Shown in pieces: positions 7,231 through 37,446 of a stretch of 44,497 nt of DNA; position 1 is the first letter of the stretch, and each line of letters starts with the position of its first letter. This stretch comes from an uncultured Spirochaeta sp. GTDB lineage: Bacteria > Spirochaetota > Spirochaetia > DTKZ01. A program made the translations under genes and the position numbers. The notes beneath the pieces were generated by a model. It saw only the letters and a program-made list of their open reading frames with translations. It was not told the DNA's origin and searched no databases. The stretch spans positions 1 through 44,497 of the forward strand of contig CAKZQO010000239.1 in the NCBI GenBank assembly GCA_937140905.1, given 5' to 3'.

Positions 7231-8253
7231 CTGGTCATTCGACATCGAGCCAAAGCACTGGATATTCTTCGCTCCTCTTCTAAACCTGTTCCCATCAAAA
7301 CCCTTGCCGGAGAATTGGGAATTACGCGGGTAGCGTTATGGAAGTTGATACGGAAGCTGGAAGAACTGGGTTACCCGATCCAGGCGAATAGAGAAGGATA
7401 CCATCTTCCAAAGGAACAGGACCCGGACCTTCTTTATCCGTGGGAGTTAGAACCCTATGGATCGAGAATCGAATGGTTCTTCAACACTTCTTCCACGATG
7501 GAGGAGGCGAAGAAGTTATTCCGATCGAATACCCCGTCCCTCCAAAAAAACGGGATGTACGGACCTGATTCAAAGCCCTTCTATACCATTGCCGAAACTC
7601 AGACTGTGGGTAGAGGGAGGTATCAGCGTACCTGGGAGTCTCCGTTGGGTGGAATTTACTTGACCCTTTCCCTCCATCGGACCGTTCCCTTAACCATTGT
7701 AGGGCGTTACCCTCTACTGGCTGGAGCAGTCCTGGTGGAAACCTTACAAGCGCTATTCCCCGGATTGTCCAGGGTTCCCTCTTTCCATGCTCCCAATGCG
7801 AAGGGGATTAGCCTCAAGTGGCCCAACGACATCCTGGTGGGAAAACGGAAACTGGGAGGTATCCTCCTAGATATAGAGGTCGAAGGCGATATGGTTACCG
7901 ATATCCATTTAGGGATCGGTCTTAACGTTCGAAATCGTGCCCGAGATCCTAACGCGGTTTCTCTGATCGAATTATTCGGTCATTCTGTACCTCCTAGAAG
8001 GGAGATCCTTCTCCAGTATTTGACACGTTTAGAGCGGGCCTTGTCAGAACCGTATCTGAAAACCGCCATTCCCCTGTGGAAACGGTTCACCTCTACCTTG
8101 GGAAAACCTGTTCGAATCCGTTTTCCCGAAGGACGCCGTGCAGGTCTAGCCGGCTACACCGGAATTGCCGTAGATCTAGGACCAGGAGGAGAACTGGTAG
8201 TTCAGACTGCCGACGGATCACTCCGGGTAGTGAGTCATGGAGATTGTTACTAA
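7216..8253 (+). CDS. birA: Bifunctional biotin operon repressor / biotin-[carboxyl-carrier] ligase
   Basis: 345 residues from the ATG at 7216. I preferred this start because the upstream in-frame TTG (7171) is the -35 box of the promoter. An N-terminal winged-helix domain (~10-65: IKTLAGELGITRVALWKLIRKLEELGYPI) gives DNA binding, so this is a group II BirA. The ligase domain follows, with the biotinyl-AMP loop GRGRYQRTWESP, the KWPNDILV substrate motif and the GGILLD segment, then a C-terminal SH3-like domain (~290-345). It activates biotin to biotinyl-AMP and transfers it to carrier lysines such as that of OadA in this window. No Shine-Dalgarno precedes the ATG; the predicted leader is only ~10 bases. 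First gene of birA-bioY-bioM-bioN and probably self-repressed. Confidence 0.93.
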   Translation: MVNNRLVIRHRAKALDILRSSSKPVPIKTLAGELGITRVALWKLIRKLEELGYPIQANREGYHLPKEQDPDLLYPWELEPYGSRIEWFFNTSSTMEEAKKLFRSNTPSLQKNGMYGPDSKPFYTIAETQTVGRGRYQRTWESPLGGIYLTLSLHRTVPLTIVGRYPLLAGAVLVETLQALFPGLSRVPSFHAPNAKGISLKWPNDILVGKRKLGGILLDIEVEGDMVTDIHLGIGLNVRNRARDPNAVSLIELFGHSVPPRREILLQYLTRLERALSEPYLKTAIPLWKRFTSTLGKPVRIRFPEGRRAGLAGYTGIAVDLGPGGELVVQTADGSLRVVSHGDCY

Positions 8254-8267
8254 TGGAGGACCCATCC

Positions 8268-8924
8268 ATGTCATCGAATGTAGATTCAACATCTATCCGC
8301 ACCTTAAGCCCCTTGCATCGTACGGTGCTCATTTCTTTGGGAGCTGCCTCTACAGCCGTAGGGGCTTTCATCGCGATACCCCTTCCTTTAAGTCCCGTGC
8401 CCATCGTTCTACAGAATTTTTTCATCCTGTTGATGGCTCTTGTCTTGGGCCCCAAAATGGGAACCGCCTCGGTAGCCTTGTACCTGTTGATCGGAGCCCT
8501 GGGGTTACCTGTGTTTGCCGGTGGGAAAGGAGGACTTGCTCATTTTTTTGGCCCCACCGGAGGGTACCTCGTAGGATTTCTTTTTTCCGCTTGGATTACG
8601 GGAACTCTTTCTATACTAGGGGCTCCACATGAGTCAGGGGATCGACAACGATCGGCGATGAACTGGAAAGTTCCACAAAAAGGGCAAGAGCAGGCAAAGG
8701 TTCGTGTTCAGGACGCGGCGGCGGCCGCAGCGGGACTTTTGGCCGTGTACCTTTTAGGGGTGCCCTGGCTATCCTATAAACTGGGGATCGAGGTGAGGAA
8801 AGCCATATTCGTGGGATTCCTGCCTTTTCTGCCCGGAGATCTTTTAAAAGCTGCGGCCGCCGCCGCCCTAGCCCCCCATGTCCGAAAGCTGTTTAAAAAA
8901 GAGTTCGTCCCTTATGAAGAATGA
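8268..8924 (+). CDS. bioY: Biotin transporter substrate-binding component BioY
   Basis: 218 residues from the ATG at 8268, chosen because GGAGGA sits 7 bases before it; an alternative ATG at 8253 overlaps the birA stop (TAATG) but has no ribosome-binding site. The protein is an S-component of an energy-coupling factor (ECF) transporter: hydrophobic helices, the LSPVPIVLQNF segment, GALGLPVFAGGKGGL and FGPTGGYLVGF signatures of the BioY family, and the C-terminal GFLPFLPGDLLKA helix. A hydrophilic insertion of about 30 residues around ~123-150 lengthens a loop relative to ordinary BioY (~190 residues). It captures biotin in the membrane and works with the ATPase and T-component encoded next. 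Confidence 0.92.
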   Translation: MSSNVDSTSIRTLSPLHRTVLISLGAASTAVGAFIAIPLPLSPVPIVLQNFFILLMALVLGPKMGTASVALYLLIGALGLPVFAGGKGGLAHFFGPTGGYLVGFLFSAWITGTLSILGAPHESGDRQRSAMNWKVPQKGQEQAKVRVQDAAAAAAGLLAVYLLGVPWLSYKLGIEVRKAIFVGFLPFLPGDLLKAAAAAALAPHVRKLFKKEFVPYEE

Positions 8925-9756
8925 ACACGGTAAGGATCAGCCCAGACAGTCTAGTGAAAACTCAGAGAGGCACACTCCCAAGCGGGAGAATATAGCTACC
9001 CTTTGTCCCGATTTGGAGACTAGAAACCTCACGTACCATTTCCCCAATGGGATGAAGGGTCTCTGCCAAGTGAACGTTTCGTTCTATAAAGGCGAGTTCG
9101 TCCTACTAGCGGGGAGAAACGGATCCGGTAAGACCCTATTAGCCCGTCACTTAGTCGGTCTCCTCCGCCCAACGGAAGGAGCGGTTTTCTTCAGGGGAGC
9201 GCCCCTTCCTTCTTGTCTCGATAAAGCCCGGCAGAAAGTAGGCCTAGTGTTCCAGGACGCGGACAGTCAGATCATCGGCCAAACCATCGAGGAAGAATTG
9301 AGGTTCGGACCGGAAAATCTGGGTTTACCGGAAGGAGAAATACAAAGTCGGGTAGAATCCGTCATCCACCTGTTAGGCCTAGAGCACAACCTCCTTACCC
9401 CTCCGGCTCGTCTCTCTGGTGGGGAGAAACGTCGTCTAGCCATTGGCGGAATCCTTACCCTCCAACCGGAACTCTTGATCTTGGATGAACCCTTTGCCAA
9501 TCTAGATTATCCCGGTATCGTTTCGGTTCTACGACTCCTACTCCATTTGAAGGACAAAGGGATTGGAATCGTATTGATTACCCACGAACTGGAAAAAGCT
9601 TTGGCCCATGCCGATCGCCTCGTTATCCTGGAAAAAGGAAGGATCGTGGAGGATGGTCCGACCCAAGCGATAGCTCCCAAAGCTGGTCAGTATGGTCTTC
9701 ATCCTCTCGATTTCTCCCGGACCCCGTTGGAAACCTGCACATGGCTTCCTCGGTGA
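8914..9756 (+). CDS. bioM: ECF transporter ATPase for biotin uptake
   Basis: 280 residues from the ATG at 8914; an upstream in-frame ATG at 8878 would add 12 residues and a larger overlap with bioY, and neither start has a strong ribosome-binding site. Walker A GRNGSGKT (~67-74), Q-loop region VFQDADSQ, ABC signature LSGGEKRRL, Walker B LLILDEPFA and the switch His in LITHELEKA are all intact. It is a CbiO/EcfA-type ATPase. A single ATPase gene next to one T-component and BioY fits a dedicated BioMNY transporter rather than a shared group II ECF module. The polar N-terminal ~30 residues are not part of the ABC fold. Confidence 0.9.
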   Translation: MKNEHGKDQPRQSSENSERHTPKRENIATLCPDLETRNLTYHFPNGMKGLCQVNVSFYKGEFVLLAGRNGSGKTLLARHLVGLLRPTEGAVFFRGAPLPSCLDKARQKVGLVFQDADSQIIGQTIEEELRFGPENLGLPEGEIQSRVESVIHLLGLEHNLLTPPARLSGGEKRRLAIGGILTLQPELLILDEPFANLDYPGIVSVLRLLLHLKDKGIGIVLITHELEKALAHADRLVILEKGRIVEDGPTQAIAPKAGQYGLHPLDFSRTPLETCTWLPR

Positions 9757-10355
9757 TCTTTCACCACGTACCAGGCACCTCCTTTCTCCATCGAATAGAT
9801 CCTCGATGGAAACTCGCTGCTTACCTATCCGTATCCTTCCTTACCATGGTAGGCCCTAGCCTCTATCTTGTGATTTTGGCTCTCTTGATCATCGCCCTGC
9901 ACGTCGGGATCCGATTGAATCCCCTTTCTATTCTAAAAGAAGCTCGGCCTCTCTGGGTTCTGGCTTTTTTCCTGCTGATCTCTCGTACCCTTTTTATCGG
10001 GTTTGAAAGTGGAGCACTGGAAACGGCACGGTTCACGTGTTTGATATTCTGGACTCATTTATTTCTAGCGGTGACTTCCAATGGAGAAATTCGAAAAGCC
10101 ATTGAGTTCCTCTTACGAAGGCTTCCTAAGAAAAAAGGGAAGCGGATTGGATTAGCCCTGAGCATTACCCTCCTTCTCTTTCCCCTTTTTCTCGATATCT
10201 CCAGGGAGATCCTCGATGCCATGGCTCTGCGACGCTTCGGCTCCAGGCGATCCTTCCAGTTCCTTACCCAGAGGTTCCTTTTGACCTTTCTTCGCAAAGC
10301 CCTTCGAATGGCCAGCAGTCTATCCCAAGCGTTGGAAATTCGGGGATTCCAATAG
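9741..10355 (+). CDS. bioN: ECF transporter transmembrane T-component for biotin uptake
   Basis: 204 residues, overlapping the end of the ATPase gene by 16 bases, which indicates translational coupling. The N-terminal block HHVPGTSFLHRIDPRWKL is characteristic of EcfT/CbiQ proteins, followed by about four to five membrane helices. Two Ala-x-x-Arg-type coupling motifs are visible: DAMALRRFGSR and, near the C-terminus, SQALEIRGF; these arginine motifs contact the ATPases. It links BioY to the ATPase in the inner membrane. Last gene of the biotin operon; the next gene converges from the other strand 10 bases downstream. Confidence 0.9.
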   Translation: MASSVIFHHVPGTSFLHRIDPRWKLAAYLSVSFLTMVGPSLYLVILALLIIALHVGIRLNPLSILKEARPLWVLAFFLLISRTLFIGFESGALETARFTCLIFWTHLFLAVTSNGEIRKAIEFLLRRLPKKKGKRIGLALSITLLLFPLFLDISREILDAMALRRFGSRRSFQFLTQRFLLTFLRKALRMASSLSQALEIRGFQ

Positions 10356-11966: not shown

Positions 11967-13172
11967 TTATATGATCCCTAGTTTCTTCCCCTCATCCTCG
12001 GCGATATTGAGGATCATGTCTAGTTCCTCATCCGTATGGATGGCCATGTAAGAGGTACGAAGGAGGGACCGGTTGGGGGGAACCGCTGGGGATACTACCG
12101 GGTTCACATACACTCCCCGGTTGTATAGGGCCTGCCAGAGGAGAAAGGTTTTTTCATCGTTTCCAATGATTAGAGGAACAATGGGGGTCTGGGCCGTTCC
12201 AATGTCGTATCCCATACTTTTGAACCCTTCGATCATCTTCCGAGCGATTTGCTGGAGACGTTGTACCCGTTCAGGTTCCTGTTCGATAATTTCCAGAGTC
12301 TTCAGTACTGCTGCCAGATTGGCGGGAGGCATACTAGCGGAGAAGATCAAGGGCCGGGCCGTGTGTTTTATGTACTCGATGATATCCGCATCCCCTGCAA
12401 GGAAGCCCCCTATGGAGCCAAAGGATTTCGAGAAGGTACACATGATGATGTCTGCCAAATCGCTAGAACCGAAATGTTCGGTGGTACCCCTTCCCGTGGG
12501 TCCGATCGTACCGATGGCATGAGCTTCATCTAGGTAGACGCCTGCACCGTACTTATCGGCAATCCGTTTCAAAGTGGGCAGGTCAACAATATCCCCTTCC
12601 ATGCTGAACACACCATCCGTAACCACCAATTTCGGTTCATCCTCTGGGATCGCTTGCAGTCGTTCTTCCATCTCTTGCAGGTTTCCATGGGGATACCTAT
12701 GCACTTTCACATCCCCATAGAGGCCTTTGGCGAGGAAGATCCCGTCCATAATGGAAGCATGGTTATACTTATCCGTGACGATGTGCTCCCCCCTCCCCAA
12801 CAAGGCCGATATTCCACCCAAATTCGTTTGGTAGCCTGTAGTAAAACAGATAGCTGCTTCCTTACCCGTGAATCGAGCCAATCTTCGTTCCAGTTCTTCA
12901 TGTAGATCCAACGTGCCGTTCATGAACCGAGAGCCAGAGCAACTGGTACCGTAGATCCGTACCGCTTCTTCCGCAGCTGCTTTCACGCGAGGATCGTGAG
13001 AAAGTCCTAGGTAATTGTTGGAACCGGCCATGATGAATTCCCGCCCTTCGATGATCACCCGAGAACCGTGATACGCTTCAATGGGTCGGAAATAAGGATA
13101 CCATCCTTCTGCTTTTGCTTTCCGTACTTCACTTAATCTACCATCCTTACGAAAAATCGCCTTCTTTACCAT
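11967..13172 (-). CDS. spt: Serine palmitoyltransferase-like alpha-oxoamine synthase (PLP-dependent)
   Basis: 401 residues from the ATG at 13172 (GAGAGG 8 bases upstream); a longer open frame to 13472 overlaps the SDR gene and is not coding. The fold-type I alpha-oxoamine synthase core is complete: His138 (NHAS) stacks on PLP, Asp215 and His218 (DEAHAIG) hold it, and Lys249 (TFSKSFG) forms the Schiff base. The family condenses an amino acid with an acyl-CoA or acyl-ACP (SPT, BioF, KBL). The segments GSRFMNGTLDLHEELE, TDGVFSMEGDIVDLP and ARPLIFSASMPPANLAAV, and the N-terminal GWYPYFRPIE, resemble Bacteroides-type serine palmitoyltransferase as I remember it. The KDSR-like reductase gene 29 bases upstream supports SPT over KBL or BioF. 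Cytoplasmic, soluble type. Confidence 0.72.
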   Translation of the reverse strand: MVKKAIFRKDGRLSEVRKAKAEGWYPYFRPIEAYHGSRVIIEGREFIMAGSNNYLGLSHDPRVKAAAEEAVRIYGTSCSGSRFMNGTLDLHEELERRLARFTGKEAAICFTTGYQTNLGGISALLGRGEHIVTDKYNHASIMDGIFLAKGLYGDVKVHRYPHGNLQEMEERLQAIPEDEPKLVVTDGVFSMEGDIVDLPTLKRIADKYGAGVYLDEAHAIGTIGPTGRGTTEHFGSSDLADIIMCTFSKSFGSIGGFLAGDADIIEYIKHTARPLIFSASMPPANLAAVLKTLEIIEQEPERVQRLQQIARKMIEGFKSMGYDIGTAQTPIVPLIIGNDEKTFLLWQALYNRGVYVNPVVSPAVPPNRSLLRTSYMAIHTDEELDMILNIAEDEGKKLGII

Positions 13173-13201
13173 GTTGTTGCCTCTCTCGTTTCTCAGTCGT
13201 A

Positions 13202-14047
13202 TTATACGGACTGTATTTGTCTTCGACAGTTCCGAATGGTTCGATCCATCACCCATCGTACCACAACCGGCATGTGCCGGGCTACCCATGCTGTGAACCG
13301 AGCCTCGAAACCGGGTATGATGAGGAATTTCCCTTTCGACAACCCTCGGAACAGCTCCTGTGCTACCGTTTCTGGTTTCAATACTCCCGCACTGGCGGAA
13401 ATTGCTTTCGTCTCCCGAGGTTTCATTCGATTCTCCTTTTCGAAACCAGGGGTATCGGTATCGGGAGGGCACAGTACGGCTATCCGTATCCCTTCATCAA
13501 CGAGTTCGCTCCGTAGAGCTTCGGAAAAGCCGATTACTCCTGCCTTCGCCGCACTGTAAGCTGTATACCCGAACACTCCCACAAGACCTGCTAAGGAGGA
13601 TACATTGACGATGATTCCTTGATTCTTCTTCAGATAGGGAAGAAGAGTCTTGGTAACATACCATGTGCCTTTCAGGTGCACATTGATGGTTTGCTCGAAC
13701 AGAGCGTCGGGGATTCGATCGAAATAATCCGGAAAAGCTTCACCCGCACAGTTGAGAAGAAAGTCGGGCTCTCCAAACTCCTGTACCGCACGAAGCAATA
13801 GGTTCTTGACCTGTTCTGGATTCCCTACATCGAGGGCAAGGGTAGCGACTCGAGGTTTGGGTTCGATTCTACCAGAAGCGTCAACCCTTCCCGATATCAG
13901 GGATCCCGCTGCTTGCTCCAATCGATTCTTGTCCCTGGCAATGAGTAAGACATCTGCTTTTCTTCGAACCAGCTCTTTTGCAACGGCCAGGCCAATACCA
14001 CTGGAACCTCCCGTAATAAAAGCACAACGAACCGTCGCTTCCGGCAT
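13202..14047 (-). CDS. SDR oxidoreductase similar to 3-ketodihydrosphingosine reductase
   Basis: 281 residues. The N-terminal Rossmann motif TGGSSGIG, the NCAG motif and the catalytic set Ser (NVSSLAG), Tyr-x3-Lys (YSAAK) identify a classical short-chain dehydrogenase. The block after the active site, PPDTDTPGFEKENRMKPRET, closely matches the corresponding block of eukaryotic 3-ketodihydrosphingosine reductase (KDSR/FVT1), and the C-terminal extension (~60 residues) is also KDSR-like; the N-terminal membrane helix of the human enzyme is absent. The expected reaction is NADPH reduction of 3-ketosphinganine, the product of the SPT-like enzyme encoded 29 bases downstream. First gene of the minus-strand operon; its promoter is leaderless type. 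Confidence 0.75.
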   Translation of the reverse strand: MPEATVRCAFITGGSSGIGLAVAKELVRRKADVLLIARDKNRLEQAAGSLISGRVDASGRIEPKPRVATLALDVGNPEQVKNLLLRAVQEFGEPDFLLNCAGEAFPDYFDRIPDALFEQTINVHLKGTWYVTKTLLPYLKKNQGIIVNVSSLAGLVGVFGYTAYSAAKAGVIGFSEALRSELVDEGIRIAVLCPPDTDTPGFEKENRMKPRETKAISASAGVLKPETVAQELFRGLSKGKFLIIPGFEARFTAWVARHMPVVVRWVMDRTIRNCRRQIQSV

Positions 14048-14055
14048 GTCCCCTT

Positions 14056-14083
14056 TTTATACACTTTTTTTACTGGCTGTCAA
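14056..14083 (-). promoter_or_regulatory. Promoter of the KDSR/SPT-like operon, leaderless type
   Basis: A consensus TTGACA (14083-14078), a 16-base spacer and TATAAA (14061-14056) lie on the minus strand. Only 8 bases (including AGGGGAC) separate the -10 box from the ATG at 14047, so the transcript would begin within a few bases of the start codon. Confidence 0.65.
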
Positions 14084-14122
14084 CGGTGTAGAATATATTA
14101 AAAATACTATACTCAACCATGC

Positions 14123-14151
14123 TTGCCCTAACTGTCCCCAATGCGTATACT
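14123..14151 (+). promoter_or_regulatory. yqgE promoter, leaderless type
   Basis: TTGCCC (14123-14128), a 17-base spacer and TATACT (14146-14151). The ATG at 14163 is 11 bases beyond the -10 box and has no Shine-Dalgarno, so a leader of about 5 bases is predicted. Confidence 0.55.
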
Positions 14152-14162
14152 CCAACTAACCT

Positions 14163-14771
14163 ATGAGTAGTGAATCGAACATGACAGAGCCTCGATACCT
14201 TTCAGGATACTTTCTCATAGCCAGTGTAAACCTCCTGGATCCAAACTTTGTTCGTACCGTCGTACTCCTTATTCAGCACAACGACGAAGGGGCTTTTGGC
14301 CTAGTGTTGAATCGCCCTTCAGGAAAAGAACTCAACGACGTGCTTCCAGAAAGTCTGGAGGGAGCCGTTCTCCATGTGCCTGTCTATATAGGAGGGCCGG
14401 TACAACAGGACTATCTATTTGTATTACACTCGGGTTTAGAGAATAAACTACTCAACCCCAACGCAACATCCCCCATTCCTGGAGTGTTCTTCGAACCGGC
14501 CACAAAACAGTTGATCAGTTATCTGATCGACGAATGGAATATTACCCCTCTAGAAGACAGACCCAAACTCCGCTTATATGCAGGGTATTCCGGTTGGGGG
14601 CCCGGACAGTTGGAACGGGAATTGCGGGAAAACTCCTGGTTCGTAGTCCCCGGCCATCAGAGTATCGTATTCCACCCCGAACCAGAAAACGCCTGGAAAG
14701 ATGCGTTGAGCCGAAAAGGAAAATATTACCGTTTCGTAGCGGAAACAGGTTATATGCCCTCGATTAACTGA
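14163..14771 (+). CDS. YqgE/AlgH family protein
   Basis: 202 residues, close to the family's ~190. The DUF179 signatures are clear: GYFLIASVNLLDPNFVRTVVLL at the N-terminus (positions ~15-36), GAFGLVLNRPSG, the VYIGGPVQQD block, and AGYSGWGPGQLERE with the conserved Trp-Gly-Pro. The biochemical role of YqgE/AlgH is not established; it has been linked to regulation in some bacteria. An alternative in-frame ATG at 14181 would shorten it by six residues; neither start has a ribosome-binding site. The last 22 bases overlap the end of aroDE on the opposite strand. Confidence 0.9.
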   Translation: MSSESNMTEPRYLSGYFLIASVNLLDPNFVRTVVLLIQHNDEGAFGLVLNRPSGKELNDVLPESLEGAVLHVPVYIGGPVQQDYLFVLHSGLENKLLNPNATSPIPGVFFEPATKQLISYLIDEWNITPLEDRPKLRLYAGYSGWGPGQLERELRENSWFVVPGHQSIVFHPEPENAWKDALSRKGKYYRFVAETGYMPSIN

Positions 14772-16261
14772 CGAGGGTACTCTTTGCCTGTGAAGAGCAG
14801 GAACTGTCGAAAAGCTTGGTGAATCAGCATAGCATCCCCGTAGATTACGGGACAGCCTGCTGCCTTAGCTCGCTTGAGAAAGAGGGTCTCCTTTGGTGCG
14901 TACACCAGATCGTACACCACTTCCTGCCCTCTGAAGGATAGGTCTGGAAAGGGGTCTTCCTCTTCCTTGGGATGCATTCCGCAGGAGGTCGTCTGCACAA
15001 CCAAGTCTGGCTTTAACTGCTTTACCAACGCAATTCCCTCTCGATCTAGAGGGCCTGCTGAGATGGTCCCCTCCGAAAGAGAGAGGGTTCTCTCCGTCTC
15101 CGCTGCCAGAGTCTCGGCCCTGCTAGCGGTCCGATTCAGGATCAACACTCTCGCTCCCTCCCGGACCAATCCATACACAACGGATCTGGACGCTCCCCCA
15201 GCCCCGATAACGAGGGCGTTCACCCCTCTTATCGTTGGGAAGACTCTTTTTAATGGTTCCAAGAACCCTTCCACGTCCGTGTTGTATCCTTTGATCGATT
15301 TCTCCGATAAGACCAAGGTATTGCAGGCTCCCACGGCACGAACTGCATCTTCGCACCAGTCACAAAATTTTAACACGGATTCTTTGTGGGGTATCGTTAC
15401 AGAAAGCCCTTTGATCTTGAGCTTTCGGGCTACGGAGAAAAAGGATTCCAGATCGTCTACAGGAAACGGAACATACACCGCATCGATTCCCAGTGCTTCG
15501 TACCCCCGATTGTGTAGGTGAGGAGACCTGCTATGGAGTACAGGGTTCCCAATGATCCCAAAGAGAGCCGTTTGAGGCCCGAAGGAAGGGTATCGGTACA
15601 CGGTATGGAGGGTGATAGGATCCACCAGGGGACCGTTCGATTGGGGAGAAGTGAAGGTAAAACATGATCCTAGACGACTCGCTAGTACTTGAAAGGGGAA
15701 TCCATACGGGCCTTCCAAGGTAAAACTTTTTCTAATCCCCACATCTTCTTTTCTTCTATCCAGAATTACCCGTTCCACAAAGGGGCCTAGTTCCCTCCAT
15801 CCCGAAGGATTGAGGGTTAAATGGAGAACGTCCTTTTCCTTAACAAGACCTTGCGTTAGCTTAGGAGGATAGGTATCTACCTCATTCTCACCGTGGATAT
15901 TTTGCATATCAATAGATCGAATCACCCCTACCCCGTCTGCATGAGCTTCCTCTTCTAAAACGTCTTGGATTGTTCCTCTGCTCTGATTCTTCTCGTACGG
16001 TACCCGAACCATATCAAAAAGCCTTCGTTTAATGAGGGTACGAGACAATTCGATCAAAGGCCCTGCATGGTGTACCAGCGTTCTGGGTATGGAAAGAATA
16101 CGCAACCCTTTAGCCTGCAGAAAAAAGGATCCCCAATCTTCCCTTTCCGGATGTTCCAAGGATTCGAATTCGATTTCGAATCCATCGTAGAACCCTTCAT
16201 GGATTTTCAACCTCTGGGACACCTCATCCAATGTTCTCTCGGAAACCCTTAATATCACCAT
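14750..16261 (-). CDS. aroDE: AroDE fusion: degenerate type I dehydroquinate dehydratase domain plus shikimate dehydrogenase
   Basis: 503 residues. The C-terminal ~265 residues are an intact shikimate dehydrogenase: substrate loop HSRSPHLHN, catalytic Lys in SVTIPHKES, Asn in GACNTLV, Asp in YNTDVEGF, and NADP loop VIGAGGASRS. The N-terminal ~230 residues align with type I 3-dehydroquinate dehydratase, but its key residues look replaced: the Schiff-base Lys region reads DVLHLTLNP (His where Lys is expected), the SxHD motif reads RSIDMQN, the E-x-R-x-D substrate motif reads EIEFE, and the late SR motif before LGSCFTF is missing. So the second enzyme probably works while the first domain may be inactive or structural. 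Third gene after manC and a BamE-like gene; the ATG at 16261 has no Shine-Dalgarno. Confidence 0.85.
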   Translation of the reverse strand: MVILRVSERTLDEVSQRLKIHEGFYDGFEIEFESLEHPEREDWGSFFLQAKGLRILSIPRTLVHHAGPLIELSRTLIKRRLFDMVRVPYEKNQSRGTIQDVLEEEAHADGVGVIRSIDMQNIHGENEVDTYPPKLTQGLVKEKDVLHLTLNPSGWRELGPFVERVILDRRKEDVGIRKSFTLEGPYGFPFQVLASRLGSCFTFTSPQSNGPLVDPITLHTVYRYPSFGPQTALFGIIGNPVLHSRSPHLHNRGYEALGIDAVYVPFPVDDLESFFSVARKLKIKGLSVTIPHKESVLKFCDWCEDAVRAVGACNTLVLSEKSIKGYNTDVEGFLEPLKRVFPTIRGVNALVIGAGGASRSVVYGLVREGARVLILNRTASRAETLAAETERTLSLSEGTISAGPLDREGIALVKQLKPDLVVQTTSCGMHPKEEEDPFPDLSFRGQEVVYDLVYAPKETLFLKRAKAAGCPVIYGDAMLIHQAFRQFLLFTGKEYPRQLIEGI

Positions 16262-34336: not shown

Positions 34337-36238
34337 ATGAAAAAACGAGTTCATTTCATGTGCACCGCGTTTCGAGACGGTTTTCAGTCCGTCTATGGTG
34401 CCAGAGTCTTTTCAAAAGACTTTCTTCCTGTAGTTGAAATGGCTAGTGCGGCAGGGATCAAGCATTTCGAAGCAGGGGGAGGAGCCATGTTCCAATCCCC
34501 TTACTTCTATGCCAATGAAGACGCTTTCACCATGATGGACAACTTTCGTAAAGCCGCAGGGCCTGACGCAAACCTACAGACCCTTTCCCGAGGGGTAAAC
34601 GTGGTAGGGTTAGATTCCCAGCCTCGAGACATTATCAAATTACACGCGGAGCTTTTTAAAAAGCACGGAATAACTACCATCCGAAACTTTGATGCTTTGA
34701 ACGACGTAAACAACCTTATTTATCCAGCCCAGTGTATCCATGAAGCGGGTCTGAAACACGAGGTAGTAGTCACCATGATGGAACTTCCCCCGGGAACACC
34801 GGGAGCCGAGCGAGCCCATACGGCCGAGTTCTACATAAACACCCTGCGACAGATTCTAGACGCAGGAATCCCCTTCGATTCCGTCTGCTTCAAGGATGCT
34901 TCAGGAACTTCCGTACCGAGGAAAGTGTACGATACGATCAAAGGTGCCAGGAAACTTTTAGGTGATAAGGTTCATCTTGTCTTCCATAGCCATGAAACAG
35001 CAGATGTCTGTATTAGCCAGTACATGTTGGCTCTGGAAGCGGGGGCAGATCAGATCGATCTATCCTTAGCGCCTGTATCCGGAGGTACTTGTCAGCCAGA
35101 CATCCTTTCCATGTGGCATGCCCTAAGAGGCACGGAATTCGATCTTGGGATCGATATCAACAAGATCATGGAACTGGAGCAGTTCTTCAAGGACCAGATG
35201 GCTGAATACTTCCTGCCCCCTGAAGCAACGATGGTAGAACCCTTAATCCCCATGTTCCCCATGCCCGGCGGTGCCCTTACCACCAACACCCAGATGATGC
35301 GGGACAACAACCTAATGCATCGGTATCCGGAAGTGATTGCGGCCATGGGAGAAGCGGTACAAAAAGGAGGGTTCGGAACTTCCGTTACCCCGGTTTCCCA
35401 GTTCTACTTCCAGCAAGCTTTCAATAACGTAATGTTTGGCAAATGGAAGAAAATCGCCGAAGGGTACGGGAAAATGGTCCTCGGCTACTTTGGAAAGACT
35501 CCCGTAGAGCCGGATCCAGAAGTTGTTCGGATATCCAAAGAACAACTAGGTCTAGAACCAACTACCGAACTGGTAGTAGACATCAATGACCGGGACCCCA
35601 AGAAGGGGAGGAAAGCTGCCGAGGCAATGCTAAAAGAAGCAGGTCTTCCCATCACGGACGAAAATGTCTTCATCGCTGCCACCTGCCGGGAAAAGGGCAT
35701 CCTTTTCCTCCAAGGGAAAGCCACCATCGGAGTACGCAAAGAAGCCAAGAAGAAGGAAGGCGAGGCAAAAGAGGGAGAAGCGAAACCGAAAGCAGCCCCT
35801 GTGTATACAGTAACTGTAAATGGAAAACCCTACGTAGTCTCTTTAAAAGAGGATGCGGCTGTAGTAAATGGAGTCACCTACGCGATTTCCGTGAAAGAAG
35901 GATCTCCTTCCGCCACAACCGTTACTCCCACGCAGTCAGCTGCAAGTCCTTCTTCGTCAGCAACAGCCTCTCAACCTGCCACCGCTCAAGGACAAGCTCC
36001 TACAGCATCCGCCACAGGCGCACTTGTTGAGATCGATTCGCCTCTCCCAGGGATTATCCTGCGGGTCCCCAAGAAAGTTGGCGACCCTGTACAAGAGGGG
36101 GAACTGGTGCTAGTGCTAGAATCGATGAAGATGGAAACTCCCATCAAAGCTCCCGCAAGCGGCACGATTGTTGAAATCAAAGTGACCCAGGGTGCACAGG
36201 TCAAGACAGGTCAGATTCTGGCCGTGATTCGCCAGTAG
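34337..36238 (+). CDS. oadA: Oxaloacetate decarboxylase-type alpha subunit (biotin carboxyltransferase)
   Basis: 633 residues. The N-terminal HMGL-like TIM barrel (~1-300) contains the carboxylated lysine candidate Lys186 (VCFKDASG) and the metal ligands His217/His219 (FHSHETAD). A PYC/OadA conserved domain follows (~300-470), then a Ala/Pro/Thr/Ser-rich linker (~530-555) and a biotinyl domain with ESMKMET, the biotinyl lysine being Lys598. The usual R-D-A-H-Q-S motif reads RDGFQS (13-18), so oxaloacetate specificity is likely but not certain; other acyl-CoA decarboxylases use the same fold. It takes CO2 from the substrate onto biotin for the membrane subunit OadB. BirA in this window would biotinylate it. 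Confidence 0.9.
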
Positions 36239-36246
36239 GAGGGTGT

Positions 36247-37446
36247 ATGTCTCTACTTGATGTGTTCCATGAAATCTTACTGAGCACTGGTATCGTGGCT
36301 TTTGAGCCAGGCCAGATCATCATGATCCTCGTGTCCCTTGTGTTGATCTATTTGGCAATCAAGAAAGAATTCGAACCCCTTCTTCTTCTTCCCATCGGAT
36401 TCGGTGGGATCTTGGCAAATATTCCTCTGGCAGAGATCGCAAAATTACCCGAACTTATCTTCGATCCTAACACCCAGAAGATCGTTCGCCACGTGGGAGG
36501 TTTTGTAGGGCAGATTTACGATTTCGGGATCGAAGGGGGACTATTCCCCCTGTTCATCTTCATAGGAGTAGGCGCCCTGACGGATTTCGGCCCCCTCATC
36601 GCCAATCCCAAGACTGCTCTATTAGGCGCTGCCGCTCAGCTAGGTATTTTTACCTCCCTACTGGGCGCTCTAGCCATGACAAAGTACCTTGGGTTTGATT
36701 TCAATTTAGCCGACGCCGCTTCCATCGGGATCATTGGGGGAGCGGACGGTCCGACTGCTATCTTCCTGGCCTCCCGACTTTCCCCCCGTTTACTGGGAGC
36801 CATCGCGGTGTCCGCCTACTCCTATATGGCTCTGGTACCCATTATTCAGCCTCCCATCATGCGTCTCCTGACTACCAAGAAGGAGCGGGAAATAAAGATG
36901 GAACAGCTTCGGCACGTGACGAAGACTGAAAAGATCGTGTTTCCCCTTATCGTACTGGGGATTTGTATCCTCCTGCTTCCTACCGCTACACCCTTGATGG
37001 GAGCCCTCATGTTCGGAAACCTTATTCGGGAATGCGGGGTTACGGAACGGCTTTCCAAGGCCGCCCAGAATGAGTTGATCAATCTAGTCACGATCATGCT
37101 GGGACTTTCAGTAGGTTCTAAACTATCATCGGATAAGTTTCTCCGATGGGAAACGATCGGAGTGCTCCTCTTAGGGCTCTTTGCCTTTGCCGTAGGAACC
37201 GCCGGTGGGGTTCTTTTAGGGAAACTGATGAACAAACTATCGAAAAGCCCGATCAACCCGCTCATTGGTTCTGCGGGAGTCTCCGCGGTACCTATGGCTG
37301 CTCGGGTCTCCAACAAGGTAGGGCAGGAGGCTAATCCGAAGAACTATCTCTTAATGCACGCAATGGGTCCGAACGTGGCAGGAGTTATCGGTTCTGCCGT
37401 CGTCGCGGGGGTGCTCTTGTCTCTAGTTCCCAAACTGATGCGCTAG
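36247..37446 (+). CDS. oadB: Oxaloacetate decarboxylase-type beta subunit, sodium pump
   Basis: 399 residues with about nine to eleven membrane helices. The sodium-binding signature is intact: [18 protein letters not shown], with the Asp and GGADGPT that line the cation path, and the C-terminal [17 protein letters not shown] segment with the conserved MGPN. It decarboxylates carboxybiotin and exports sodium ions, so the complex stores decarboxylation energy as a sodium gradient, which can feed the flagellar motor or transport. GGAGGG before the ATG; gap to oadA of 8 bases; strong terminator downstream. Confidence 0.95.

Follow-up and report, generated by a model that had tools for sequence, protein, structure and literature searches.

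Does the genome of an uncultured spirochaete code for the synthesis of a sphingoid base, and do two adjacent genes carry its first two steps? Sphingolipids are lipids thought to be typical of animals, plants, and fungi, and to our knowledge work on those of bacteria has been confined almost entirely to Bacteroidota and Proteobacteria. The window, by which we mean the whole stretch of 44,497 nucleotides that was analyzed, corresponds to contig C239 in a draft genome of 3.57 Mb that is 98% complete. An earlier note on this DNA had pointed to two adjacent minus-strand genes, one resembling that of serine palmitoyltransferase (SPT) and the other that of 3-ketodihydrosphingosine reductase (KDSR), and both open reading frames are indeed present, arranged as follows.

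13202..14047, minus strand: gene for an SDR of KDSR type (candidate 3-ketosphinganine reductase), 281 aa, first gene of the operon

13173..13201, minus strand: intergenic gap of 29 nt, with a ribosome-binding-like site, GAGAGG

11967..13172, minus strand: gene for an alpha-oxoamine synthase (putative SPT), 401 aa, ATG start, second gene of the operon

14048..14162, minus strand: region upstream of the SDR gene, a putative promoter (TTGACA-16-TATAAA) by sequence comparison only

We place the probability that this operon makes a sphingoid base, by an SPT step followed by a KDSR step, at roughly 0.82. The two genes are probably co-transcribed, because only 29 nt lie between them and the order, strand, and short gaps are the same in 16 genomes. 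The synthase start is the ATG at 13172, since relatives align from residues 1 to 9 of the 401-aa form; a GTG-started open reading frame of 501 aa (11967-13472), which overlaps the SDR gene, was rejected as the synthase gene. In the upstream region, only ~8 nt separate the −10 box of TTGACA-16-TATAAA from the start codon of the SDR gene; the SDR-SPT transcript may therefore be nearly leaderless, and the element is kept in two sister species (window positions 14048-14090). It is absent from the list given by a consensus promoter scan, the last base of its −10 box being A, and the counts of promoters and terminators in the window show no excess over shuffled sequence.

A sister genome (L055) has homologues of the flanking genes arranged around the operon in an unchanged order, and the operon is therefore not an accident of assembly. 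An Rfam search of the window gave no match, and there are no tRNAs in the window. The lipid genes that the earlier note had placed in the window and outside the operon were recovered as fabF, fabG, fabD, and the genes for a CDP-alcohol phosphatidyltransferase and a phosphatidylserine decarboxylase. Also in the window, the shikimate dehydrogenase gene (14750-16261, minus strand) has an N-terminal part of ~230 aa that occupies the position of a 3-dehydroquinase and for which a Pfam search at E 0.01 gave no match.

The best PDB sequence match of the synthase is the Sphingobacterium multivorum SPT (8guh/3a2b), with 413 bits and 49% identity over 379 residues, followed by the S. paucimobilis SPT (277 bits), the Thermus-type AOS (275 bits), KBL (at most 238 bits), and then BioF and ALAS. 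With this score against a solved SPT, and with an adjacency that is conserved in 16 genomes, the gene pair is far beyond chance. The top NCBIfam model is that for the Bacteroidota SPT (NF047600) at 496.6 bits, which is under the cut-off of 640, so the synthase is not an equivalog by the curated NCBIfam standard; this cut-off is a database threshold and not a functional trait. Phylogeny, which the earlier note had named as the check on the synthase, groups it with SPT: in a tree that comprises 37 alpha-oxoamine synthases, among them E. coli KBL, two rhodobacterial SPTs, and references labeled by NCBIfam cut-offs, it lies on the side of the proven SPTs and apart from KBL and BioF (support 100/100), and forcing the spirochaetal synthases to group with KBL is rejected (AU test, p=0.00018). 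The spirochaetal synthases form one clade in this tree (100/99), whose sister is a Myxococcota MAG, with the myxobacteria next. A larger quick tree recovered the same groups, although its deepest split is less well supported (88).

The PLP lysine of the synthase is K249, and it is accompanied by H138, D215, and H218. The residues around the serine aldimine are known from the S. multivorum SPT structures (PMC10196870), and relative to that enzyme N52, Y54, G80, S81, H138, S190, D215, H218, T246, S248, and K249 are kept; among the PLP and substrate residues that we checked, the changes are Ala79 to Ser, Ser53 to Asn, Met271 to Ile276, and two loop positions. G80, S81, and S248 are of SPT type and not of KBL type, as are the motifs GSRFMNGT, NPVVSPAVP, DGVFSMEG, and TFSKS. 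An AlphaFold model of the synthase, built with a spirochaetal alignment (pLDDT 89), has S. multivorum SPT as its top PDB folds (TM 0.91-0.95), followed by the SPTs of S. paucimobilis and S. wittichii, with the cysteate acyltransferases far lower.

These comparisons bear on two other identities for the synthase. It could be a housekeeping KBL or BioF that happens to lie beside an unrelated SDR, given that these enzymes belong to the same superfamily and that a gene for the biotin importer BioY (8184-8924) is 3 kb away; however, the tree, the AU test, and the SPT-type residues contradict this reading, to which we give very little chance. The partner SDR belongs to the KDSR clade and is not a threonine dehydrogenase, and a BioF would lack its pathway: the best candidate for a biotin synthase in the genome scores 93.6 bits, short of the cut-off of 225, which makes that role very unlikely. 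On the tree, the AU test, and the biotin synthase search together, we rejected KBL and BioF as identities of the synthase, which is the sole alpha-oxoamine synthase found in the genome. It is exceedingly improbable that the synthase joins a fatty acyl chain to cysteate in a sulfonolipid (capnine) route, with the SDR as 3-ketocapnine reductase: the solved cysteate acyltransferases match the synthase at 210-213 bits, against 413 for SPT, and fall far below the SPTs by fold, although 3-ketocapnine reductases are KDSR homologues (PMC11211663) and the SDR alone could thus serve either route.

The biotin importer genes are an observation in their own right. They comprise genes for BioY, an ECF ATPase, and a T component, lie near a birA-like gene, and share the window with a biotin-dependent oxaloacetate-decarboxylase-like pair (positions 8184-10355 and 34337-37446 for these features together). 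As the genome has the importer genes while no biotin synthase passes the cut-off, the organism is likely to rely on biotin taken up from outside.

The amino acid used by the synthase is a separate question. Residue 79 contacts the amino-acid side chain via water (PMC10196870), and since it is Ser and not Ala, the serine specificity of the synthase is not certain. An operon for 1-deoxysphingoid bases, with a synthase that prefers L-alanine or glycine and an SDR that gives 1-deoxysphinganine or 1-desoxymethylsphinganine, would be consistent with Ser at this position in all of the spirochaetal members examined, with the acceptance of Ala, Gly, and homoserine by the S. multivorum SPT (PMC10196870), and with the occurrence of 1-deoxysphingolipids in anoxic Black Sea water (PMC11334938). 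We nonetheless consider it unlikely, because the groups that hold the serine hydroxyl are kept (the N52 side chain and the backbone of G80 and S248), and because Ser79 is also present in Corallococcus, within a delta-proteobacterial/Bacteroidetes SPT subgroup that includes Myxococcus (PMC9386255).

The second enzyme has the SDR fold, with the GGSSGIG cofactor loop, S150/S151, and Y164-x-x-x-K168, and these motifs are invariant or nearly so in the alignment of its orthologues. It contains the KDSR block PPDTDTPGFEKENRMKPRETK, given as PPDTDTPGFEKENRMKPRET at residues 194-213. Across 16 spirochaetal orthologues, PP-x-T-x-TP ... KP-x-ET is invariant and the block as a whole, PPDTDTPxxxxExxxKPxET, is nearly so; the KDSR block of the earlier note is thus real. 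The C-terminal extension that it had described is present as two helices, which may be equivalent to the eukaryotic extension. The C-terminal 91 residues have one meaningful PDB match, by way of GFDAENRTKPAVTKK, and this is the fungal KDSR TSC10, the sole KDSR of known structure found in our PDB searches. In a tree with 24 other SDRs (the window FabG, SDRs of SPT-bearing genomes, SDRs adjoining other SPTs, and three solved SDRs), TSC10, the one eukaryotic reference and on a very long branch, joins the spirochaetal SDR clade at 100/100, apart from all 24. The SDR therefore lies with a KDSR, and not outside the KDSR clade, the placement that the earlier note had named as evidence against its reading.

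Other searches with the SDR were less informative. We found no KDSR model in NCBIfam or Pfam, where the SDR matches generic SDR models only, and a fold search with the SDR model is not discriminating, as classical SDRs all match it and HSD17B13 ranks at the top. CerR, the epimerase-type ceramide reductase, was rejected as an identity for the SDR, which has no similarity to epi of the E. coli BL21 cluster. The SDRs that adjoin SPT in Oceanirhabdus, in one Haloplasmataceae MAG, and in two Bacteroidota form a different SDR clade.

The SDR-SPT pair is a widespread spirochaetal trait. In a set of 60 genomes drawn from the organism's own genome, genus, family, and class, the SDR is present in 20 at E≤1e-40, and all 20 have an SPT homologue (Fisher p=2e-10, a guide only, as the genomes are related). 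The SDR gene is directly upstream of the SPT gene and on the same strand in 16 of these 20, with 20-126 nt between the matches. A broader sample of 197 Spirochaetota genomes has the SDR in 36 at E≤1e-42, a threshold at which some of the matches are paralogues. The earlier note had called such a pair unexpected in a spirochaete, which is too strong given its presence in many Spirochaetia; that SPT-like genes extend beyond Bacteroidota and Proteobacteria is already known, such genes having been reported in MAGs of 38 phyla from the Black Sea in a paper whose main text names no spirochaetes (PMC11334938). In other spirochaetes, the SPT gene is followed directly by one for a FabA/FabZ-like dehydratase, with no KDSR nearby (L068:7983-9622; L070:7977-9613; L071:126-1754), and this gene order hints that the 3-keto base is put to another use there.

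We propose that the SPT would catalyze the PLP-dependent condensation of a long-chain acyl thioester and an amino acid, L-serine being the most probable, to give 3-ketosphinganine and CO2, and that the KDSR-type SDR would then reduce the 3-keto group with NADPH to yield sphinganine. What the sequences provide is the family membership of both enzymes, the conserved active-site residues, and the conservation of the operon; we infer the activity itself, the use of serine over alanine or glycine, the acyl donor (acyl-CoA vs. acyl-ACP), the use of NADPH, and the chain length. Many related spirochaetes have a third gene, of the YghO/Aca family, whose product would convert sphinganine to dihydroceramide by N-acylation.

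This third family surfaced when we clustered the neighbors of the operon, as a double-GNAT protein of ~375 aa with GNAT matches in Pfam. Its gene lies directly before KDSR-SPT in the spirochaetes G030 (at L048:8276-9400) and L067, which thus have a complete acyltransferase-KDSR-SPT operon, and it adjoins SPT in G031 and G050. Homologues are located directly after SPT in Nitrospirota, Zixibacteria, Gemmatimonadota, Planctomycetota, Myxococcota, Elusimicrobiota, Pseudomonadota, Bacteroidota, and unclassified bacteria. Because the protein and E. coli BL21 YghO match from end to end (HHalign probability 100, E=2.4e-41), we read the family as a putative bacterial ceramide synthase family; YghO (aca, ECD_02850) is described as the acyl-CoA N-acyltransferase of the dihydroceramide cluster and a ceramide N-acyltransferase homologue (PMC9386255). 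Close members are encoded in 15 of the 60 genomes, all 15 of which have an SPT homologue.

Several further gene arrangements involve this family. In another Spirochaetota genome, a KDSR-like SDR gene adjoins that of a YghO-type acyltransferase on the same strand (G175:C31:3394-5340), which by gene order is a further link between the two families. Near the GNAT-(KDSR)-SPT genes of some spirochaetes are genes for a conserved protein of ~428 aa with no Pfam match and for an MMPL/RND-type exporter (L048:11446-15038; L067:6926-10112; L057:5939-9498), possibly with roles in lipid esterification or export. Within a large group of Bacteroidota SPT-like proteins (sampled as L187-L213), many have GSRY(M/L)TGT and DGVFSVSG where SPT has its own motifs, and the substrate of this group may be other than serine; the genes of several adjoin one for a YghO-type acyltransferase (e.g., L193, L199, and L204).

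Neither the four members of the window's genus (G000-G003) nor family f8 has a match to the YghO-type family at E≤1 or E≤10 in two profile searches, one with a spirochaetal profile and one with a broad profile that draws its 18 sequences from across many phyla, and the same profile search recovered members at E<1e-120 (1e-123 or better) in four control genomes. The absence rests on profile searches, and as the G000 draft is ~98% complete a gap is possible, but the four genus members agree with the complete genomes of f8, a family represented by three genomes of which two are single-contig assemblies. Some other Spirochaetota likewise have the SDR with no strong match to the YghO-type family. 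The search for a ceramide synthase that the earlier note had proposed thus turned up a family present in many spirochaetal relatives, sometimes in the same operon, but with no member in the window's genome or genus.

As the YghO-type family was not found there, sphinganine in the window's genus would be the end product, or would be acylated or given a head group by an unrelated enzyme. We suggest, tentatively and knowing that it may well prove wrong, that long-chain bases, free or with a head group, serve this genus and f8 as membrane lipids or as signals, or that these lineages have a ceramide synthase of a novel type of their own. The presence of SPT and KDSR with no YghO-type ceramide synthase, in the genus and in a second family, could also point to a secreted or signaling amino-alcohol and not a membrane lipid, namely a long-chain base left free or a product with a short chain. 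However, an unrelated N-acyltransferase is possible and the CqsA-type autoinducer synthases score much lower in the PDB search, at 132 bits, and we regard this as very improbable.

If the pair acts as an SPT and a KDSR in sphingoid-base synthesis, a bacterial SPT and a eukaryote-type KDSR in one operon would make the eukaryotic order of steps, reduction and then acylation, testable in a bacterium. The spirochaetal KDSR would also bear on the origin of the eukaryotic KDSR, and the lineages with no known ceramide synthase point to a novel acyltransferase or an unusual lipid. A literature search, with most subscription journals outside its reach, gave no relevant paper on spirochaetal sphingolipid synthesis, and within that reach we found no description of an SPT operon with a eukaryotic-type KDSR, of the hybrid with a YghO-type acyltransferase, or of the version that lacks it.

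Among known systems, the SPTs of S. multivorum and Bacteroidota are like the synthase in fold, in PLP residues, and in almost all substrate residues, but they have Ala79 and not Ser79, and the window synthase, unlike them, is in an operon with a KDSR-type SDR. The nearest non-spirochaetal relatives are SPT-like genes of Myxococcota (54-57% identity), with support of 100/98 for L073 and 96/91 for Corallococcus (L105); a YghO-type acyltransferase adjoins SPT in L073, L076, and L109, whereas no KDSR-type SDR does. That a bacterial SDR can act as a KDSR is known from Bacteroides BT_0972, compared here by its description, which reduces 3-ketosphinganine and, unlike the window SDR, is not clustered with SPT (PMC9278070). 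The best SDR matches in SPT-bearing Bacteroidota genomes lie outside the spirochaetal/TSC10 clade. The dihydroceramide cluster of Caulobacter and E. coli BL21 consists of aasR, epi/CerR, acpR, spt, and aca/bCerS (PMC9386255). It begins with the same step (the E. coli SPT and the synthase are 36% identical) and has an Aca/YghO family that is common to many spirochaetes, but its reductase is epimerase-type, with no similarity to the window SDR, and neither acpR nor aasR lies beside the window pair. By some proposals, among them one for Caulobacter, this epimerase-type reductase acts after N-acylation. The eukaryotic KDSR/Tsc10 (PDB 8jat), although of low overall identity to the SDR and lacking the PPDTDT half of the block, shares with it the block itself, GFDAENRTKPAVTKK vs. 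GFEKENRMKPRETKA, and the same clade of the SDR tree.
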